Virus record (IMG/VR): IMGVR_UViG_3300025506_000039
Location: 1 to 29,011 of that record
Strand: one strand, 5' to 3'
DNA length: 29,011 nt
Source: a virus
Position numbers and translations under genes: made by a program. The notes below the pieces were generated by a model. It had not been told where the DNA came from and did no database searches. It saw only the letters and a program-made list of their open reading frames with translations. This document shows positions 1,440 through 17,337 of this stretch, piece after piece; position 1 is the first letter of the stretch, and each line of letters begins with the position of its first letter.

Positions 1440-2582
1440 GTGAAGATTGCGATCGATTTCGACGGCTGCCTTGTGGAACAAGATCGCCCATACGATGATG
1501 TCGTCACTCCGCTGCGCTTGATTCCAGGGGCGAAGGAAGCGCTCGCCAGTTTGCGATCAGCAAATCACCTTCTGCTGCTGTGGAGCGGCCGCGCTTCCCG
1601 GGCGCTGCTCCTGGACCCCCTACTAGACCCCTTCGTCCGTGCCGGCGTCGTGGACTGCGACCGTCGTCACTGGCTCGAATCCAGGGCCATCCACCGGGCG
1701 CGCTACGACCAGATGATCGAGTTCGTCGAGAGAGAACTCCCTGGGGTCTTCGACGCGATCGACGACGGCTTGGCCGGTAAGCCTAGCGTGGATCTCATCA
1801 TCGACGATAAGGCGATGGCGATGCGCGGCCCCGCCACTTGGGCGCGAATCGCCCGCGTGTACGGCGAAACCGAACCCTTGTATGACGCCGCGGTGGCGAG
1901 CGGCCTACTGGACCGCCCGGTCGAAAGCCTGAACCTTGTGCCACGTGGAACACTCCGGGCCGTCCTGGACCAGATTCATGGCGAGATGGTGGCGGCTGGC
2001 ATCGCGCACTACTGGCCGACCTTCGAGCTGGGGCAGGCGGGTTTCTGGGCGGCCGACCGCGCCACGAGCATCAACATCCCGTGGTTTCTCGCCAACGACG
2101 AACTGCGGGCGCTGGCGCAGGAGCGCTACCCGTGGACCTGGGAGACCGTCACCAAGAGCATCCGGCACGAGGTCGGGCACTCGGTCGGGTATGCGTTCGA
2201 GCTATGGCGGCGCCCCGACTGGCAGCAGGTGTTCGGCGACTTCCTGGCACCCTACCCGAAGTCGCAGCCCGCGCCGGTCGACCCCGCCAGCACCGAGTGG
2301 GTCAACTATGTGCCGGGCGTGGAGGTAGGTTACTCGGCGCGGCACCCCGACGAGGCGTGGGCCGAGGCTTTCGGCTGCTGGCTAGATCCGTCCACCGACT
2401 GGCGGGAACGCTACCAGGCGGGCACGGGCGCGCGCCAGAAGCTCGATTACGTGGACGGCATCGCCAAGGACGTGCTGCGGGGCCTGCCGAGCAACTGGGA
2501 CACTGGCAGTCCACGAAAACCACGTGCTGCTTATTCTGGACAAACGGTTAGGCAAGCACTAGGATTACCGTCCAGTGCATGA
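1440..2582 (+). CDS. HAD-like phosphatase fused to HEXXH metallopeptidase-like domain
   Basis: GTG start at 1440, 380 residues. The N-terminal third looks like a HAD-superfamily hydrolase: DFDG with D6 and D8 (motif I), LWSGR as a motif II-like segment, and LIIDDKA with D122/D123 as the acidic motif. The C-terminal half carries HEVGH at residues 243-247, a zinc-peptidase HEXXH motif, followed by HPDEAWAEAF (302-311), where E305 or E309 could supply the third zinc ligand. Similar HEXXH...E arrangements occur in phage-associated putative zinc metallopeptidases near portal/MuF genes. The two domains are joined in one uninterrupted frame. The cellular target is unknown: nucleotide or nucleic-acid end dephosphorylation, head maturation, or an injected effector are all open. 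Its stop overlaps the next gene as ATGA. Confidence 0.72.
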   Translation: MKIAIDFDGCLVEQDRPYDDVVTPLRLIPGAKEALASLRSANHLLLLWSGRASRALLLDPLLDPFVRAGVVDCDRRHWLESRAIHRARYDQMIEFVERELPGVFDAIDDGLAGKPSVDLIIDDKAMAMRGPATWARIARVYGETEPLYDAAVASGLLDRPVESLNLVPRGTLRAVLDQIHGEMVAAGIAHYWPTFELGQAGFWAADRATSINIPWFLANDELRALAQERYPWTWETVTKSIRHEVGHSVGYAFELWRRPDWQQVFGDFLAPYPKSQPAPVDPASTEWVNYVPGVEVGYSARHPDEAWAEAFGCWLDPSTDWRERYQAGTGARQKLDYVDGIAKDVLRGLPSNWDTGSPRKPRAAYSGQTVRQALGLPSSA

Positions 2583-3331
2583 AAAACCAAGAGTCACTTA
2601 AGACGCGCTTCTGGTCGAAGGTTAACAAAGAAGGCCCAGTTCCTATTCACGTTCCTGAACTTGGTCCGTGCTGGCTCTGGACAGGACACGTTACCGAAGA
2701 TGGATATGGGCAGTTGCAAGTTGGGAGCAGGACGGATGGATCCCGACGGAAAGAACTAGCCCATCGGGTAGCGTGGTATTTTGCGCACGGACGGTGGCCG
2801 ACCCCGTGTGGATTGCACAAGTGCGACACCCGGGCCTGTGTGCGGTTGGAGCATATTTTTGAGGGGACGAACGCTGACAATGTGCGCGACCGCAATATCA
2901 AGCAGAGACAATCGCGGGGAGAGGGCCGCCCAACGGCTAAACTGACCGAAGACAAAGCTCGCGAAATCATGCGCAGAAAGGCAGAGGGATGTACGACACG
3001 TGATCTGGCAAAAGAGTTCGGAGTCAGCAAAACCGTAGCCGCAAACGTCGGCCGTACCAGTTGGCTTCACGCTGCGGATCCCCAACTACTGCAGGGGATG
3101 GATAGATATAAGCGCCGTCGTGGCGCAGATCATAGTAATGCCAAGATCACAGAAGCGCAGGCCATGGAAATCCTCAGACGCAAAAAAGAAGGAGAGCGGA
3201 AGGCCACGCTAGCGCGCGAATTTGGCATCAGCGCCACCACGGTTGATCGCATCGGCAGAACGCAGTGGATTCATCTCCTTTCGAGACGAGACCACGCCGT
3301 TCCAACCGAAACAAACACCTTGACACCGTGA
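2579..3331 (+). CDS. HNH homing-type endonuclease with two C-terminal HTH repeats
   Basis: A 250-residue protein starting at an ATGA overlap with the upstream gene. The N-terminal half has the standard layout of free-standing phage HNH homing endonucleases: FWSKV, CWLWTG, GYGQLQV, AHR at 61-63, then H80, C82-D83, C87 and H92 forming the HNH/zinc region, and EGTNADN. Two tandem DNA-binding repeats follow, each starting AK(L/I)TE and ending with an FG(V/I)S...W(L/I)H block. Such enzymes cut cognate sites in alleles lacking them and so spread. Composition is visibly more AT-rich than its neighbours, consistent with recent arrival. It disrupts nothing obvious, having landed at the 3' end of the fusion gene. 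Assignment is confident; activity is not shown. Confidence 0.88.
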   Translation: MKNQESLKTRFWSKVNKEGPVPIHVPELGPCWLWTGHVTEDGYGQLQVGSRTDGSRRKELAHRVAWYFAHGRWPTPCGLHKCDTRACVRLEHIFEGTNADNVRDRNIKQRQSRGEGRPTAKLTEDKAREIMRRKAEGCTTRDLAKEFGVSKTVAANVGRTSWLHAADPQLLQGMDRYKRRRGADHSNAKITEAQAMEILRRKKEGERKATLAREFGISATTVDRIGRTQWIHLLSRRDHAVPTETNTLTP

Positions 3332-5597: not shown

Positions 5598-6062
5598 ATG
5601 GGAAACGCCTCCGTCCAGTTCGCCAAGAGCCAGCAGCAGAAGAAGCAAGACCAGCACGACGACAAGCCCCGCTGGAACGCGCAAGAGAAACTCGCGCTGA
5701 AGAAGATGCGCCGGGAAGCCAAGGCCGCAGGCGCGACGCTGGAGAACAACGGCGAAGGAGGGCTTGCGCCGTCACTCGTGCTGGGGATTTTTCGGAGGGA
5801 TCATTTTCGTTGCGTGAACGAGGACTGTCCCACGCCGAAGAAGGATTTGTCGCTTGACCACATCAGTGGCCATCCGAAGGAGATTGCGGCGGATCCAGAA
5901 GCTCGTCACAGGAAAGACCTGAAGCTCGGGATCAAGCTTGGTCACGTCGCTAAGATGGAAGCCCTGAGGACCATTTGTGCGCGATGCCATGATCGTTGCC
6001 ACGACCGGGAACGAGAGATAGATGCTGGTGAGAAACCGCAACCCATGAGAGGCAAAGAGTAA
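5598..6062 (+). CDS. HNH nuclease-family protein
   Basis: A 154-residue protein. The N-terminal ~50 residues are highly charged and helical (Gln/Lys-rich). The HNH core follows: C72-xxxx-C77, LDHISGHP with D87-H88, then a helix ending in LRTICARCH with C127, C130 and H131. The paired cysteine positions form the structural zinc site and DH88 the catalytic part of the beta-beta-alpha-metal fold. Unlike the gene at 2579 it lacks AHR and the C-terminal HTH repeats, so it belongs to the general phage HNH group whose members include packaging-associated nucleases. Its C-terminal 18 residues closely match the end of the unrelated next gene. No ribosome-binding site; see the promoter candidate at 5561-5590. 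Confidence 0.75.
   Translation: MGNASVQFAKSQQQKKQDQHDDKPRWNAQEKLALKKMRREAKAAGATLENNGEGGLAPSLVLGIFRRDHFRCVNEDCPTPKKDLSLDHISGHPKEIAADPEARHRKDLKLGIKLGHVAKMEALRTICARCHDRCHDREREIDAGEKPQPMRGKE
6006..6062 (+). repeat. Shared C-terminal tail, copy 1
   Basis: Encodes REREIDAGEKPQPMRGKE and stop. Copy 2 at 6998-7054 encodes REREIDSGKKPEPMPGEK and stop: 12 of 18 residues agree while codons differ at many third positions. The host genes are otherwise unrelated (HNH and PD-(D/E)XK types). Confidence 0.75.
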
Positions 6063-6070
6063 CTTCCGTC

Positions 6071-7054
6071 ATGACGATCACTACGTTCATGCCGAGGATT
6101 TGTGCGAAGTGCGGATCTCCCTACGAGGGAACGAGAATGCTTTGCGATGCCTGCCGTGTCGGCAAGTGCCCGACGTGCGGAGGCCCGCTGATACAGACGA
6201 GGGGCGTCGGTCACGTCTACAGGTACTGCTCCTACGAATGCCGGAACAAGGGGCGCAAGGGCATCCCCCTCAAGGGTAAAGTGATTGTCTCTTGCGAAGT
6301 CTGCGGGGAAAGATTCCCAGTATTCCCGTCTCGGGTAGGCGAGACAAAGTACTGCTCTAAAAAATGCGGGCGTGTCGGGATGAGCAAGAGCCTATCTGCG
6401 GCTGGGTTGAAACTTCGCGCCGATCCGGCATATCGAGCGGCGCAGTCGACAAGGACAGCAGCCTCTTGGCTGGACATAGAGAAACGCGCAAAACACTTGG
6501 AGTCAGTGCGAACACCTGAGCATCGTAGGCTGAGATCCAAGATTGGCAAGGAGCAATGGGAAGCTCCCGATTGCAAAGCCAGAGTCGCACTACGCACCTT
6601 TCTGGATTCTCCGAAATTCCACCAAAGCATGCTCATGCGCAAGTTGCCAGCGTGGCCCAAGTGGACTTCCTACGTCGATTCAAGGGGAACCGAGCATCGC
6701 TTCCGTTCTTCGTGGGAAGCCGACTGGGCCAAGTGGTTCGACTATTTAGGACTCGAATGGAAGTACGAACCCAAGCGGTTCGATCTCGGCCCGCACCGTC
6801 TAGGTGTTTACACACCAGACTTTCACGTGCAGACACCGTTCGGTGCGTGCTACGTCGAGGCGCACCGGATGGAAACCATTCGTCCGGGAGATGAGAAGAA
6901 GGTCGCCAAGCTCAAGAAGATCGCCGCAGAAGGCATCTTGGATCTTCCGCTCGTGCTCATGGGAGAATCTCAGATCAAGGGCATGCGCAAGGCGATGCGG
7001 GAGCGCGAGATCGACTCAGGCAAGAAGCCCGAACCGATGCCGGGGGAAAAGTAG
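6071..7054 (+). CDS. Zinc-finger PD-(D/E)XK homing-type endonuclease
   Basis: A 327-residue protein. The N-terminal ~100 residues contain cysteine pairs typical of zinc ribbons or treble clefs (C11/C14, C25/C28, C33/C36, then YCSYEC, CEVC and YCSKKC), likely for DNA recognition. The C-terminal domain reads RSSWEADWAKWFDYLGLEW, YEPKRFDL, YTPDF and YVEAH, matching the order of PD-(D/E)XK nucleases: helix glutamate E216, D250 after the PD turn, and E263-x-H265. Histidine stands where lysine is usual, as in some Vsr-like/EDxHD-type homing enzymes, although I cannot confirm that subgroup. It follows an HNH gene by eight bases, shares that gene's C-terminal tail, and overlaps the next start by one base (TAGTG). 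Probably a selfish free-standing endonuclease. Confidence 0.7.
   Translation: MTITTFMPRICAKCGSPYEGTRMLCDACRVGKCPTCGGPLIQTRGVGHVYRYCSYECRNKGRKGIPLKGKVIVSCEVCGERFPVFPSRVGETKYCSKKCGRVGMSKSLSAAGLKLRADPAYRAAQSTRTAASWLDIEKRAKHLESVRTPEHRRLRSKIGKEQWEAPDCKARVALRTFLDSPKFHQSMLMRKLPAWPKWTSYVDSRGTEHRFRSSWEADWAKWFDYLGLEWKYEPKRFDLGPHRLGVYTPDFHVQTPFGACYVEAHRMETIRPGDEKKVAKLKKIAAEGILDLPLVLMGESQIKGMRKAMREREIDSGKKPEPMPGEK
6998..7054 (+). repeat. Shared C-terminal tail, copy 2
   Basis: The 3' end of the PD-(D/E)XK gene encodes REREIDSGKKPEPMPGEK, matching the end of the upstream HNH gene (6006-6062). Divergence is concentrated in synonymous positions, so the peptide has been retained longer than the nucleotide sequence. 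Confidence 0.75.
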
Positions 7055-10028: not shown

Positions 10029-10220
10029 TTACCCCTTGAATCCCGGTGGCCTGCCCTGCCACGCCGGCTCGGGTGCCGGTGGCAGCGTGTCGCCGTCGTC
10101 CGGCATCGGGCAGGGCAAGACGATCATGCTGACCTTCTTCGCCCGGGCGTCGGCCTTGTCCCGATCCGACCAGACCGAATCGACGGCGTTGCAGCAGTGG
10201 ACGACATAGACGGTCTTCAA
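10029..10220 (-). CDS. Small hypothetical protein, 63 residues
   Basis: TTG start at 10220 overlaps the stop of the XRE-sigma gene as TTGA; the stop lies just upstream of the glycosyltransferase. The N-terminal half (MKTVYVVHCCNAVDSVWSDR, then DKADARAKKV) has the strand-helix pattern of small phage proteins whose first strand ends in a W/F and then D-K-A. The C-terminal half is Pro/Gly-rich and likely disordered (DDGDTLPPAPEPAW). No function can be assigned. Confidence 0.55.
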   Translation of the reverse strand: MKTVYVVHCCNAVDSVWSDRDKADARAKKVSMIVLPCPMPDDGDTLPPAPEPAWQGRPPGFKG

Positions 10221-10846
10221 TGCTCGGTGTCTTTCTTATAAGGATTTTCGCATCCGGCTTCCGACGCAAACGCGAAAAACTTCTTGCTGCGCGAGGGATG
10301 ACGTAGCTTGCGCAGGGCCATCTCTTGGATCTGGCGAATCCTCTCCGGGCTCTTACCTAGTGATACGCCTATTTCGTCCAATGTTTTGTCTGCATCTCCG
10401 CCAAGCCCAAACCGTTCCGTAAGGACTTCGCTCTCAATCGGACTCAAGCTCATCAGAGCCTCGCCCATTAGACCCTCTAGCTGCTTGCGTTCCATTTCAA
10501 ACTGCGGACCAAGTGCATCTCGCCTGAGCGAGTCTGGAATCAGCGCTCTTATTTCCTCAGCGTCGAATGAGCGCTCTGCCATTGGCTTGTCCACGGCCAG
10601 CACCACTTCTGGAAACAGATCCTCGGGCAGAACTCGGTAGAACTTCGCCAGCAACTGCGCACTCGGGCACCATCCGCTTTTGTCTTTCTTACTGGTGGGG
10701 GTACACCTGAGATTCTCCAGACTGACGTATACGCCATACGACATCCCAACTTTCTCGGACAGTTCGATCGTGCTGAGCCCGAGCGCTTCCCGCCTTGCCT
10801 TCAGCAAGTTGTTCTGAAGCTTCACGACCATACGAATCGCTTTCAT
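10217..10846 (-). CDS. XRE-type HTH fused to sigma-70 region 4-like domain
   Basis: A 209-residue protein from ATG 10846; ATG 10831 is an alternative. Residues ~12-50 (NNLLKARREALGLSTIELSE, then KVGMSYGVYVSLEN) form a Cro/C1-type HTH. Residues 134-~184 (LSPIESEVLTERFGLGG, then TLDEIGVSLGKSPERIRQIQ and ALRKLRHPSR) match sigma-70 region 4, which reads -35 elements and touches the RNA-polymerase beta flap. There is no region 2, so it is not a complete sigma factor. I infer a regulator that may redirect host polymerase or act as an activator with promoter-reading specificity, perhaps for the cassette or late genes. The gene is more AT-rich than its neighbours. Its 5' side abuts a strong palindrome at 10855-10885. 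Confidence 0.78.
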   Translation of the reverse strand: MKAIRMVVKLQNNLLKARREALGLSTIELSEKVGMSYGVYVSLENLRCTPTSKKDKSGWCPSAQLLAKFYRVLPEDLFPEVVLAVDKPMAERSFDAEEIRALIPDSLRRDALGPQFEMERKQLEGLMGEALMSLSPIESEVLTERFGLGGDADKTLDEIGVSLGKSPERIRQIQEMALRKLRHPSRSKKFFAFASEAGCENPYKKDTEH

Positions 10847-14987: not shown

Positions 14988-16406
14988 ATGGACTTCTCAG
15001 TCATTCAGCCAGATCCGACGATCCGAGCCCTCGTGCAAGACAACGCGCTCATCCGCGAGTTCAAGGACGCGCTGTACCCGCGCAACCTGTTCCGCGGTGA
15101 GGCCGCCCCGGTGTTGCAGCCGGGACAAGCCGGTGATCAGTTCATCTTCACCGGGAACGGCCTGATGGCGCCCTCCACCAATCCGCTGCCTCCAGGGAAG
15201 GAGCCCGAGCCGTCTCCGTTCGACAAGGAACAATGGAACATGCAGTTACACCAGTACGCGAACCGCTGCCCCGACACCAGCATGCCGACCAGCATCGTGG
15301 CGATCGCGAACCTGTTCACCAACAACGTCCACCAGCTCGGCCTGAACGCCGCGCAGTCGCTCAACCGCGTCGTGCGCGACCGGCTCTACAACGCCGGCAT
15401 GAGCGGTTGGACCGTCGCGAACGGCGTCACCGCCTCCGGGACCAGCCTCCCGGTCATGCGGCTCAACGGCTTCACGACCGCGCGTCGCCCCGACCTGACG
15501 GCCGGAAGCCCCGTGCAGTACTCGGCGGTGTCGTCCTCGAACCCGCTGCCCATCAGCTACATCGGCACCGATGGGAACGTTCACACGGTCAACGTCGTCA
15601 ACTTCACGTCGACATTCGAAGGCGACGTGGTTGGCCCCGGCACCCTCACGACCGACGTGAGTTTGCCGGTCGGGATCTTGAACCGCGGCGTGATCTGGAG
15701 CAACGACGCCACCTACATGGTGCGGAGCGGTGGCGGCAACGGCATCGACTCTCTGACGAGCACGACCAGCAACGGGTTTACGTTCGACCTGTTCCGCGCG
15801 GCCATCGGTCGCCTGGAAGACAGCAACGTGCCGAAGATGCCGGACGGCTTCTACCACAGCCACTTCAACAGCTACTCGAAGAACCAGCTTTTCAGCAGTG
15901 ACGAGAGCCAGAAGCTCCTGACCTCGCTGCCTGACTACTACTGGTTCAAGGAGTTCGCGCTGGGCGACATCCTCGGAACCCTCGTGTTCCAGGACACCGA
16001 GACCCCGCGGTCCAGCACCGTGGCGGGCGGCATCCAGAACGTCTACAACGGCGACGCCCGCAAGGGCGAGCGGTTCGGCGGCGAGATGTGGAACGCCAGC
16101 AAGCTGGAAGTCCAGCGCCCGATCTTCATCGGCGCCGAGGCGGTGTACGAGTACTACGCCGACCTGCGCGGCCTCATCACCGAGGCCGGGCTCAACGGCG
16201 AGGTGGGCGACTTCAGCCAGCTCACCAACAACGGCGTGGAAGTCAACGCCGACCGCGTGCAGGTCTACCTGCGCGCCCCCGTGAACGTGATGGGCGACCT
16301 CGTGACCGGCATCTGGAAGACCATCATGGACTGGCCCTGCAGGACCGACGGTGCGACCGGGGATACCGCTCGCTACAAGAGGATCTGCGTCGTCGAGCAC
16401 GTCTAG
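14988..16406 (+). CDS. Major capsid protein, HK97 fold, N4 gp56-like
   Basis: A 472-residue protein with a purine-rich site (AGAGG) before ATG 14988. The N-terminal arm (DNALIREFKDALYPRNLFRG) is followed by segments I recognise from N4 gp56-type major capsid proteins: FNSYSKNQLFSSDE after MPDGFYHSHF (the P-domain strand with its D-G-x-Y/F-H pattern), then QRPIFIGAEAVYEYY and a late beta strand near the C-terminus (VYLRAPVNVMGDL). Codon usage is strongly GC3-rich, as expected of a highly expressed gene. It sits directly downstream of the scaffold. There is no sign of a long N-terminal delta domain, consistent with a separate scaffold. It is followed by an unusual 547-bp gap. Confidence 0.85.
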   Translation: MDFSVIQPDPTIRALVQDNALIREFKDALYPRNLFRGEAAPVLQPGQAGDQFIFTGNGLMAPSTNPLPPGKEPEPSPFDKEQWNMQLHQYANRCPDTSMPTSIVAIANLFTNNVHQLGLNAAQSLNRVVRDRLYNAGMSGWTVANGVTASGTSLPVMRLNGFTTARRPDLTAGSPVQYSAVSSSNPLPISYIGTDGNVHTVNVVNFTSTFEGDVVGPGTLTTDVSLPVGILNRGVIWSNDATYMVRSGGGNGIDSLTSTTSNGFTFDLFRAAIGRLEDSNVPKMPDGFYHSHFNSYSKNQLFSSDESQKLLTSLPDYYWFKEFALGDILGTLVFQDTETPRSSTVAGGIQNVYNGDARKGERFGGEMWNASKLEVQRPIFIGAEAVYEYYADLRGLITEAGLNGEVGDFSQLTNNGVEVNADRVQVYLRAPVNVMGDLVTGIWKTIMDWPCRTDGATGDTARYKRICVVEHV

Positions 16407-16410
16407 TCAC

Positions 16411-16518
16411 GTGCGCGACCTCGGGACCAATCATGTTCGGACCAGGGACATGCTCGACACGAACGGCGACGGCGCCGTCGGGTATGTCCCTGTCGAGTTT
16501 GCCCTTCGGGGCAATTAA
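16411..16518 (+). CDS. Possible 35-residue ORF with EF-hand-like loop
   Basis: GTG 16411, four bases after the capsid stop, to TAA 16516-16518. The peptide contains DTNGDGAVGYVPVE, which resembles a calcium-binding EF-hand/dockerin loop (D-x-N-x-D-G) although the usual Glu at position 12 is displaced by two. There is no clear ribosome-binding site, and the frame overlaps the first stem-loops of a candidate structured RNA. It could be translated by re-initiation after the capsid stop, or be accidental. Confidence 0.25.
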   Translation: MRDLGTNHVRTRDMLDTNGDGAVGYVPVEFALRGN

Positions 16519-16845
16519 AGGGCCTGGGCTCTTTTTGAGCCGTAACCACTCGCGGTCGTGTCGCAGTGGTCTGGCCCGCCAGCGTGGTGGCGGCGCTTCG
16601 GCGCCTGCCCATACGAACGCGCTGGATAGCCGCACTTGTCGCCGGATGGTCGCGGATACGCGCTCGCTTGGTCTGGTCACTCAGCGAGAGCGCCCGCCTT
16701 TGATGGCGAACTCCAACGGGCCTCGTGCCTTGCTGGAGATGTTGTGCGGCGCTCGGGGAGCACGGAACCCTGCCTGTGGCATCGGAACCGCGATCCCCTC
16801 TGGCGGCCCCACTGCTAGTCGGTGGTCGGTGGCTTCGGCCATGAC
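16443..16845 (+). ncRNA. Candidate structured RNA downstream of the major capsid gene
   Basis: The 547 bases between capsid and the next gene (16407-16953) hold no convincing CDS. Stem-loops tile it: CAGGGACAT/ATGTCCCTG (16443-16451/16484-16492) enclosing the perfect palindrome CGACGGCGCCGTCG (16467-16480); TTGCCC-TTCG-GGGCAA (16499-16514); GGCTC-TTTTT-GAGCC (16527-16541); ACCACT-c-GCG paired with CGC-AGTGGT (16545-16570); CTGG-cccg-CCAG (16571-16582); GGCGC-TTCG-GCGCC (16592-16605); GCGCTCGCT paired with AGCG(AG)AGCGC (16660-16693); TGGC-TTCG-GCCA (16830-16841). Three loops are the very stable cUUCGg type. The first hairpins could also act as a terminator or mRNA-end stabiliser for the capsid message, though no U-tract follows. 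High GC makes chance pairing easier, so covariation is needed. Confidence 0.4.
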
Positions 16846-16953
16846 GTCGGACTCTCGCATGAGCAGAACCCATCGTCGTGGGACAAACGACGTATCTGCA
16901 CGCGCCGGAGTTCAACGCCCCGCCTCTTTTCGACCAGCAGCAGGAGAGACCCC

Positions 16954-17337
16954 ATGAGCCTACTGAGCGACAAGGCAGCGCAGCGAGCCGCGGCGACCCG
17001 CAAGCCCGCCGAACCATCGAAGACGAGTGAGCCTGCGGCCCCAGCGGACCCGCTGGCCGACGTCGTGGTGTCGGCTGAGGAGTTCACGCGGTCCAAGACC
17101 GAGGGGCTGGACGTGGTCGTGGACCCGCCACCCACGCCACCCCCTGCCGCCGAAGAACCGAAGGCCAAGGAGCAACCCAAGCCCACGCGCGTGCGGGTCC
17201 TGGAGCCCGGCAAGATCATGCTGGGCGGCTGCATGCAGCGATTCAAGCGCGGCGCCATTCTGGACCAGCGCCACTACGATCCCGAGCACTTCCGTCAGCT
17301 TCTGACGGTTCTCACGACGGAGCCGGTCACGGGGTAG
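16954..17337 (+). CDS. Hypothetical protein, disordered N-terminus with small C-terminal domain
   Basis: ATG 16954 with AGGAGA (16942-16947) six bases upstream; 127 residues. The same frame is open upstream to 16822, but the extra segment is Arg/Ser-rich and lacks a start site. Residues 1-~75 are Ala/Pro/Lys/Glu-rich and probably disordered. The C-terminal part (TRVRVLEPGKIMLGGCMQRF, then KRGAILDQRHYDPEHFRQLL) looks like a small beta-helix domain. It is the first gene of the connector group after the capsid gap and may be a head-completion or accessory protein. No family recognised. Confidence 0.62.
   Translation: MSLLSDKAAQRAAATRKPAEPSKTSEPAAPADPLADVVVSAEEFTRSKTEGLDVVVDPPPTPPPAAEEPKAKEQPKPTRVRVLEPGKIMLGGCMQRFKRGAILDQRHYDPEHFRQLLTVLTTEPVTG

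Follow-up and report, generated by a model that had tools for sequence, protein, structure and literature searches.

A large structured RNA encoded directly after the major capsid protein gene in a phage lineage

INTRODUCTION

The phi29 pRNA is a phage structural RNA of head morphogenesis that is encoded at a genome end and oligomerizes by loop-loop contacts. The Mu-gpT-DE RNA (Mu-like gpT downstream element) is a structured RNA located downstream of the major head protein gene of Mu-like phages. Among the much larger RNAs of phages and prophages that have Rfam families, GOLLD is reported to rise during lysis and to form an RNA-only 14-mer cage, and an RNA-only cage is also formed by ROOL, one example of which is 659 nt long (PMC12286853).

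Here, we analyzed a 29,011-nt stretch of viral DNA (positions 1 to 29,011 of IMG/VR record IMGVR_UViG_3300025506_000039), hereafter referred to as the window, in which an RNA of about 490 nt lies behind the major capsid protein (MCP) gene. Like GOLLD, this RNA is large, multidomain, and phage-encoded, is known largely through metagenomes, and has no known function. In contrast to GOLLD, which exceeds 800 nt and is often located near a tRNA or carries one, it is shorter and sits behind the MCP gene in a 29-kb window without tRNA, and the GOLLD covariance model matches neither the window RNA nor its homologues. With ROOL, it shares a similar size class, an elaborate conserved fold with pseudoknots, a phage origin, and an unknown function; however, its motifs are different, the ROOL covariance model does not match it, and it is fixed beside the MCP gene rather than lying near tRNA arrays. 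Mu-gpT-DE, a much smaller motif, resembles it in position only (downstream of the major head protein gene in 35 of 35 records), and no Rfam match to that element was obtained in the window or homologues, assuming that it is among the 4227 families searched. The phi29 pRNA is also much smaller and has no sequence or structure match to the RNA described here.

A first-pass annotation of the window, made from the sequence alone, had raised the possibility of a large structured RNA of unknown class at this place and had pointed to GOLLD and ROOL. The former suggestion is supported by covariation, by the lack of coding bias, and by the lack of Rfam matches. The comparison with GOLLD and ROOL is valid as an analogy in size and complexity but not as membership.

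RESULTS

Location and distribution of the RNA

The product of the gene located upstream of the RNA weakly matches PHROG_1357, a major head protein family (E = 8e-4), and aligns at 28.8% by tblastn with the protein annotated as major capsid protein in Streptomyces phage Kromp. A scaffold gene is found upstream of the MCP gene in the window. The 547-bp gap after the capsid gene, which had been singled out in the first-pass annotation, is exact: the MCP gene ends with a TAG at 16404-16406, and the next ATG is at 16954 (Table 1). No PHROG or Pfam match was obtained for the product of the downstream gene.

To gather relatives, the MCP protein was searched against IMG/VR, and profile searches followed. 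There are 34 further viral contigs that extend past the MCP stop codon, with MCP identities of about 60 to 100%. The RNA interval is present in all of them, in one place, between the MCP gene and the same downstream gene, and an MCP homologue precedes every RNA copy found. Matches were scored with two covariance submodels of 132 positions each, R1 for the 5′ core and R2 for the 3′ domain. R1 matches all 35 MCP-family records, window included, and R2 matches 34 of the 34 records whose contig does not end before the 3′ domain. Fourteen of these sequences served to build the submodels, so that their own scores follow by construction, but the universality of the matches does not. Each of nine whole records (31 to 83 kb) contains a single copy of the RNA.

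The RNA was also searched for without regard to the protein, using three DNA patterns taken from separate regions of the RNA, one of which was also applied in a relaxed form. Besides chance matches, only the set of MCP contigs was recovered. The sole exact pattern match in 84,980 prokaryote genomes, in a Chitinophagaceae MAG (L060), was rejected as a host-genome copy and is ascribed to chance because it matches neither RNA model. Eight extra viral contigs retrieved with the 3′-domain pattern (L082-L089) were likewise attributed to chance and do not represent copies of the RNA away from the MCP gene. A blastn search for relatives of the RNA in cultured phages found none. Two cultured phages with a distant MCP, Kromp (29%) and Komagataeibacter phage phiKX1 (26%), have no comparable gap, and the RNA covariance models do not match them. 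The Pfam terminase profile PF03237 yielded nothing in five related contigs, and the phage type is therefore not settled. As far as the searched records can tell, the RNA is limited to one phage lineage, with no phylogenetic sign of its moving independently of the MCP gene.

The linker between the MCP stop codon and the RNA is not conserved: the mean pairwise identity of the 5′ flank is 31% versus 67% for the RNA. In one relative, L071, a 166–amino acid HNH gene (L071:7444-7944; PHROG_3106, E = 3e-25) is inserted exactly between the MCP stop codon and the RNA, whose fold is retained despite the insertion. The unconserved linker and the fold kept behind an inserted gene indicate that the RNA is a separable unit. 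A strong inverted repeat (CCCCCACTGTA...TACAGTGGGGG) is located close by, upstream of the HNH gene of L071. Other genes of the window are listed in Table 1.

Table 1. Features of the window (coordinates are window positions).
Feature	Position	Strand	Remarks
ORF, N-terminal part matching a phosphoheptose isomerase (SIS-type) PHROG	1440-2582	+	E = 7e-13
HNH-family ORF	2579-3331	+	Strong
HNH-family ORF	5598-6062	+	Weak
HNH-family ORF	6071-7054	+	Strong
Sigma-70 region 4 domain protein	10217-10846	-	Pfam E = 5e-14; about 4 kb before capsid genes
MCP gene, 472 amino acids	14988-16406	+	Directly upstream of the RNA
Unconserved linker, MCP stop codon to RNA	16407-16441	+	5′ flank identity
Whole structured RNA, about 490 nt, seven domains	16442-16930	+	Covariation; 35 of 35 records
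P1, long fast-evolving hairpin with variable tip	16442-16492	+	Helices 74% and 93% paired
CACGA, proposed loop-loop partner of UCGUG (16556-16560)	16458-16462	+	Complementarity, invariance
P2, cUUCGg hairpin	16499-16514	+	97.6% paired; three double-change pairs
P3, GGGCC/GGCCC stem	16520-16577	+	P3a 16527-16541; P3b 16545-16570 (loop UCGUG)
P4, long hairpin with UUCG loop	16578-16626	+	Conserved AUACGAA internal strand
P5 domain, long-range stem GCCGCAC/GUGCGGC	16629-16750	+	Inner arms 16639-16709 and 16711-16738
P6, optional arm	16755-16798	+	Alignment
3′ domain, closing stem GGCGG/CCGCC	16802-16924	+	Hairpins 16809-16825 and 16829-16842
H-type pseudoknot	16869-16892	+	Stems 16869-16871/16880-16882 and 16874-16878(9)/(16887)16888-16892
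UCUUUU, conserved pyrimidine/U-rich tract	16925-16930	+	Right after the closing stem; same place in homologues
Downstream gene, 127 amino acids, function unknown	16954-17337	+	Same gene in relatives

Known RNA families

When Rfam 15 (4227 families) was applied at the gathering threshold, there were no matches in the window and none in 11 homologous loci (106 kb). Permissive Rfam searches returned chance eukaryotic or viral families below the threshold or nothing. The open-access literature contains no description of such an RNA that we could find; subscription papers were mostly outside this search. Rfam 15 has no entry for this family, while the kind to which it belongs, large ornate phage RNA, is already known.

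These searches bear on the idea that the locus contains a catalytic or mobile RNA placed between genes, i.e., a self-cleaving ribozyme, a degenerate group I or group II intron, or an intron-like element. A complex fold with a pseudoknot would suit such an element, as would the HNH endonuclease gene adjoining the RNA in L071 and the several HNH genes found elsewhere in the window. However, no relevant Rfam match was obtained at any reported level, including self-splicing introns (no group I or group II core) and known ribozymes. In addition, the RNA lies between two complete genes and interrupts none, and it is present as a single copy in a constant place and never elsewhere. We consider a catalytic or mobile element improbable.

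Covariation beyond phylogeny

Compared to shuffled sequences, the single-sequence folding energy of the interval gives a modest z of −2.4 for the plus strand, and the minus strand scores better (z = −4.5), so energy alone would not settle the matter. The fold was evaluated on a MAFFT alignment (A4) of 14 distinct sequences, with a consensus structure computed by RNAalifold to which the first stem of the pseudoknot and the loop-loop contact were added by inspection. In the 160-pair model, 92.4% of pair cells in the 14 sequences are paired; shifting the partners by one to three columns lowers this fraction to 37 to 43%. Changes on both sides are present at 90 of the 160 pairs, and 259 double-change cells are observed versus 75.4 ± 6.9 after shuffling.

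Since shuffles ignore ancestry, we also used a null in which alignments were simulated along the tree with per-column rates (150 simulations). Over the proposed pairs, covariation sums to 803, compared to 3.5 ± 23 in the simulated alignments (the largest of the 150 values is 65). Under this null, 19 proposed pairs have E < 0.05, and four of them are located in the pseudoknot. When all 140,715 column pairs compete, three pass, each of which is a proposed helix pair. The identity of the RNA is above the third-position identity of the MCP gene in 98% of sequence pairs. The interval thus contains a conserved secondary structure backed by covariation beyond phylogeny, as expected of a large structured noncoding RNA, and we regard the existence of the RNA structure as practically certain.

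Strand and coding potential

Read on the plus strand, the helices outside P1 contain 134 G-U cells versus 26 A-C cells. The excess of G-U over A-C cells places the RNA on the plus strand, and the cUUCGg loops also read on this strand. On the same 134 to 26 ratio, a minus-strand RNA was rejected, despite the better folding energy on that strand.

One plus-strand frame is open throughout the interval in the window (181 codons) and for 136 to 178 codons in more distant relatives, and in homologues it runs in nearly one register over most of the RNA. However, the three codon positions vary to the same extent (0.300, 0.321, and 0.295), single-base indels shift the register of the frame in four relatives (L045, L055, L063, and L071), and BLOSUM scores do not consistently favor any frame. 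The absence of codon periodicity and the register-breaking indels rule out a protein gene in the gap. The earlier remark that no frame in the interval reads as a convincing protein is therefore correct in substance, even though one frame is fully open, and ORF-based gene callers should be treated with caution here, since a false gene could be annotated at 16407-16953.

It could still be argued that the interval contains nothing more than a common terminator, hairpins formed by chance, or the remains of a protein gene, because C+G-rich DNA folds easily and the long open frame persists in the window and its more distant relatives. The lack of codon periodicity and the compensatory changes found throughout speak against this, and the sole terminator-like site detected by a scan is on the opposite strand, inside the MCP gene. 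We give this interpretation next to no weight. The first-pass annotation had listed a terminator and a decayed gene as alternatives, and both are refuted by covariation. Two of the three outcomes that it had named as disproof of a structured RNA, a lack of covariation across homologues and a coding frame with synonymous bias, can be set aside; covariation turned out to be strong, with nearly every helix covarying, and no such frame is present in the interval.

Architecture of the RNA

The domains of the RNA are presented in Table 1. Hairpins had earlier been traced to 16845, but the structure does not end there: it extends to about 16924 and includes the pseudoknot at 16869-16892. Three hairpins closed by cUUCGg loops were confirmed where they had been noticed (16499-16514, 16592-16605, and 16830-16841). 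A 14-base palindrome reported at 16467-16480 (CGACGGCGCCGTCG) is perfect but is not conserved among relatives and constitutes the window phage's version of the variable tip of the P1 hairpin.

P1 has the lowest pairing score (74%), owing to a one-column misalignment of four sequences. The sole invariant element of this otherwise fast-changing hairpin is an internal CACG(A/G). In every one of the 14 sequences, this element is complementary to the invariant UCGUG loop of P3b, with G in place of A only where a G-U pair is kept. These data are consistent with a contact between the two elements, either within one molecule or between molecules, but they consist of invariance and complementarity without covariation and cannot prove it.

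If formed between copies, the contact would resemble that of the phi29 pRNA, and the RNA could be a packaging or capsid-assembly RNA that forms a loop-loop oligomer located at the portal or within the head. Such a role, a specific form of the discrete trans-acting RNA favored below, is compatible with the strict link to the coat-protein gene and with the invariant CACGA/UCGUG complementarity. However, the pRNA is far shorter and has a different genomic location, no Rfam pRNA match was obtained, and there is no direct evidence of virion association. We therefore view a pRNA-like function as very doubtful.

The pair 16546-16569 in P3b occurs as CG, AU, and GC and has E < 0.05 even over the 140,715 column pairs. 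P4 helices are 96 to 100% paired, with double changes in ten pairs. In the P5 domain, pairs 16652-16697, 16654-16695, 16711-16738, and 16714-16735 are significant under the simulated null. L037, L038, L049, and L063 retain only a short hairpin in place of P6, which, as judged from this alignment, is a dispensable domain. The 3′ domain has a long stem (16843-16858 with 16904-16919), which carries the H-type pseudoknot. The second stem of the pseudoknot is 98.8% paired, with double changes in five of its six pairs, and its loop 3 is A-rich in the window phage (ACAAA).

The U-rich tract behind the closing stem is a possible 3′ end or weak terminator. In homologues, it is located 20 to 41 nt upstream of the next ATG, near the Shine-Dalgarno sequence. 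The scan for terminators and promoters revealed neither an ordinary hairpin terminator at the RNA nor a promoter-like site. Pairing between the U tract and the Shine-Dalgarno sequence was considered as a conserved feature and rejected, since only a few homologues have it.

This arrangement raises the possibility that the RNA is a cis-acting intercistronic element of a polycistronic late mRNA, which would protect the MCP message from 3′ exonucleases and/or lower downstream expression; reduced transcription or translation of the next gene would then set the ratio of coat protein to the downstream product. The RNA is always directly after the MCP gene and directly before the same gene, its 3′ end is close to the Shine-Dalgarno sequence of that gene, and a U-rich tract follows its G+C-rich closing stem. 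Precedents for regulation by 3′ untranslated regions in bacteria and phage have been mentioned (PMC2864571). On the other hand, protection or attenuation would call for far less than an RNA of ~490 nt in which seven domains are combined with a pseudoknot and invariant loops. The HNH gene of L071 parts the MCP gene from the RNA, base pairing between the U tract and the Shine-Dalgarno sequence lacks conservation, and the related MCPs of Kromp and phiKX1 manage without the RNA. Because of the strict synteny and the proximity of the 3′ end to the next ribosome-binding site, a cis role remains possible, but we hold it with limited confidence only.

DISCUSSION

Our preferred explanation is that the locus encodes a discrete noncoding RNA of ~490 nt, made from the MCP strand together with the late capsid transcript and acting in trans. 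We estimate its probability at roughly 0.55; expression and function are inferred, and the trans-acting role is the uncertain part. A discrete RNA is favored because of the size of the structure, the number of its domains, its invariant loops, and its tolerance of a gene inserted upstream.

According to this explanation, the RNA would be transcribed at a high level within the late capsid mRNA, which is inferred from its position in the absence of expression data. Its 3′ end would be set at or near the U-rich tract, and it would either be cut out of the capsid mRNA or survive as a stable 3′ fragment. The released RNA, compactly folded, may act in trans as an architectural RNA when particles assemble or when the host is taken over late in infection, and its copies may associate with one another through the CACGA/UCGUG contact. 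Coproduction with the coat protein would supply the RNA in matching amounts. The RNA would thus work like the ornate RNAs GOLLD and ROOL while being unrelated to them. Late transcription of the MCP-RNA unit could depend on the sigma-70 region 4 protein encoded in the window (Table 1), a putative phage sigma factor. More tentatively, and in our opinion with a low likelihood, this new class of RNA made with the coat protein may self-assemble through CACGA/UCGUG and serve as a structural partner of the capsid or form an RNA cage.

Few phage RNAs of such size and intricacy are known. Their functions remain open, although two of these RNAs form cages without protein. A further family that is not related to them and is bound to the coat-protein gene in a single lineage offers a handle on the function of ornate RNAs. 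Its genomic position predicts when the RNA is made, and structural and genetic work can start from the 14 aligned sequences and their tested fold.
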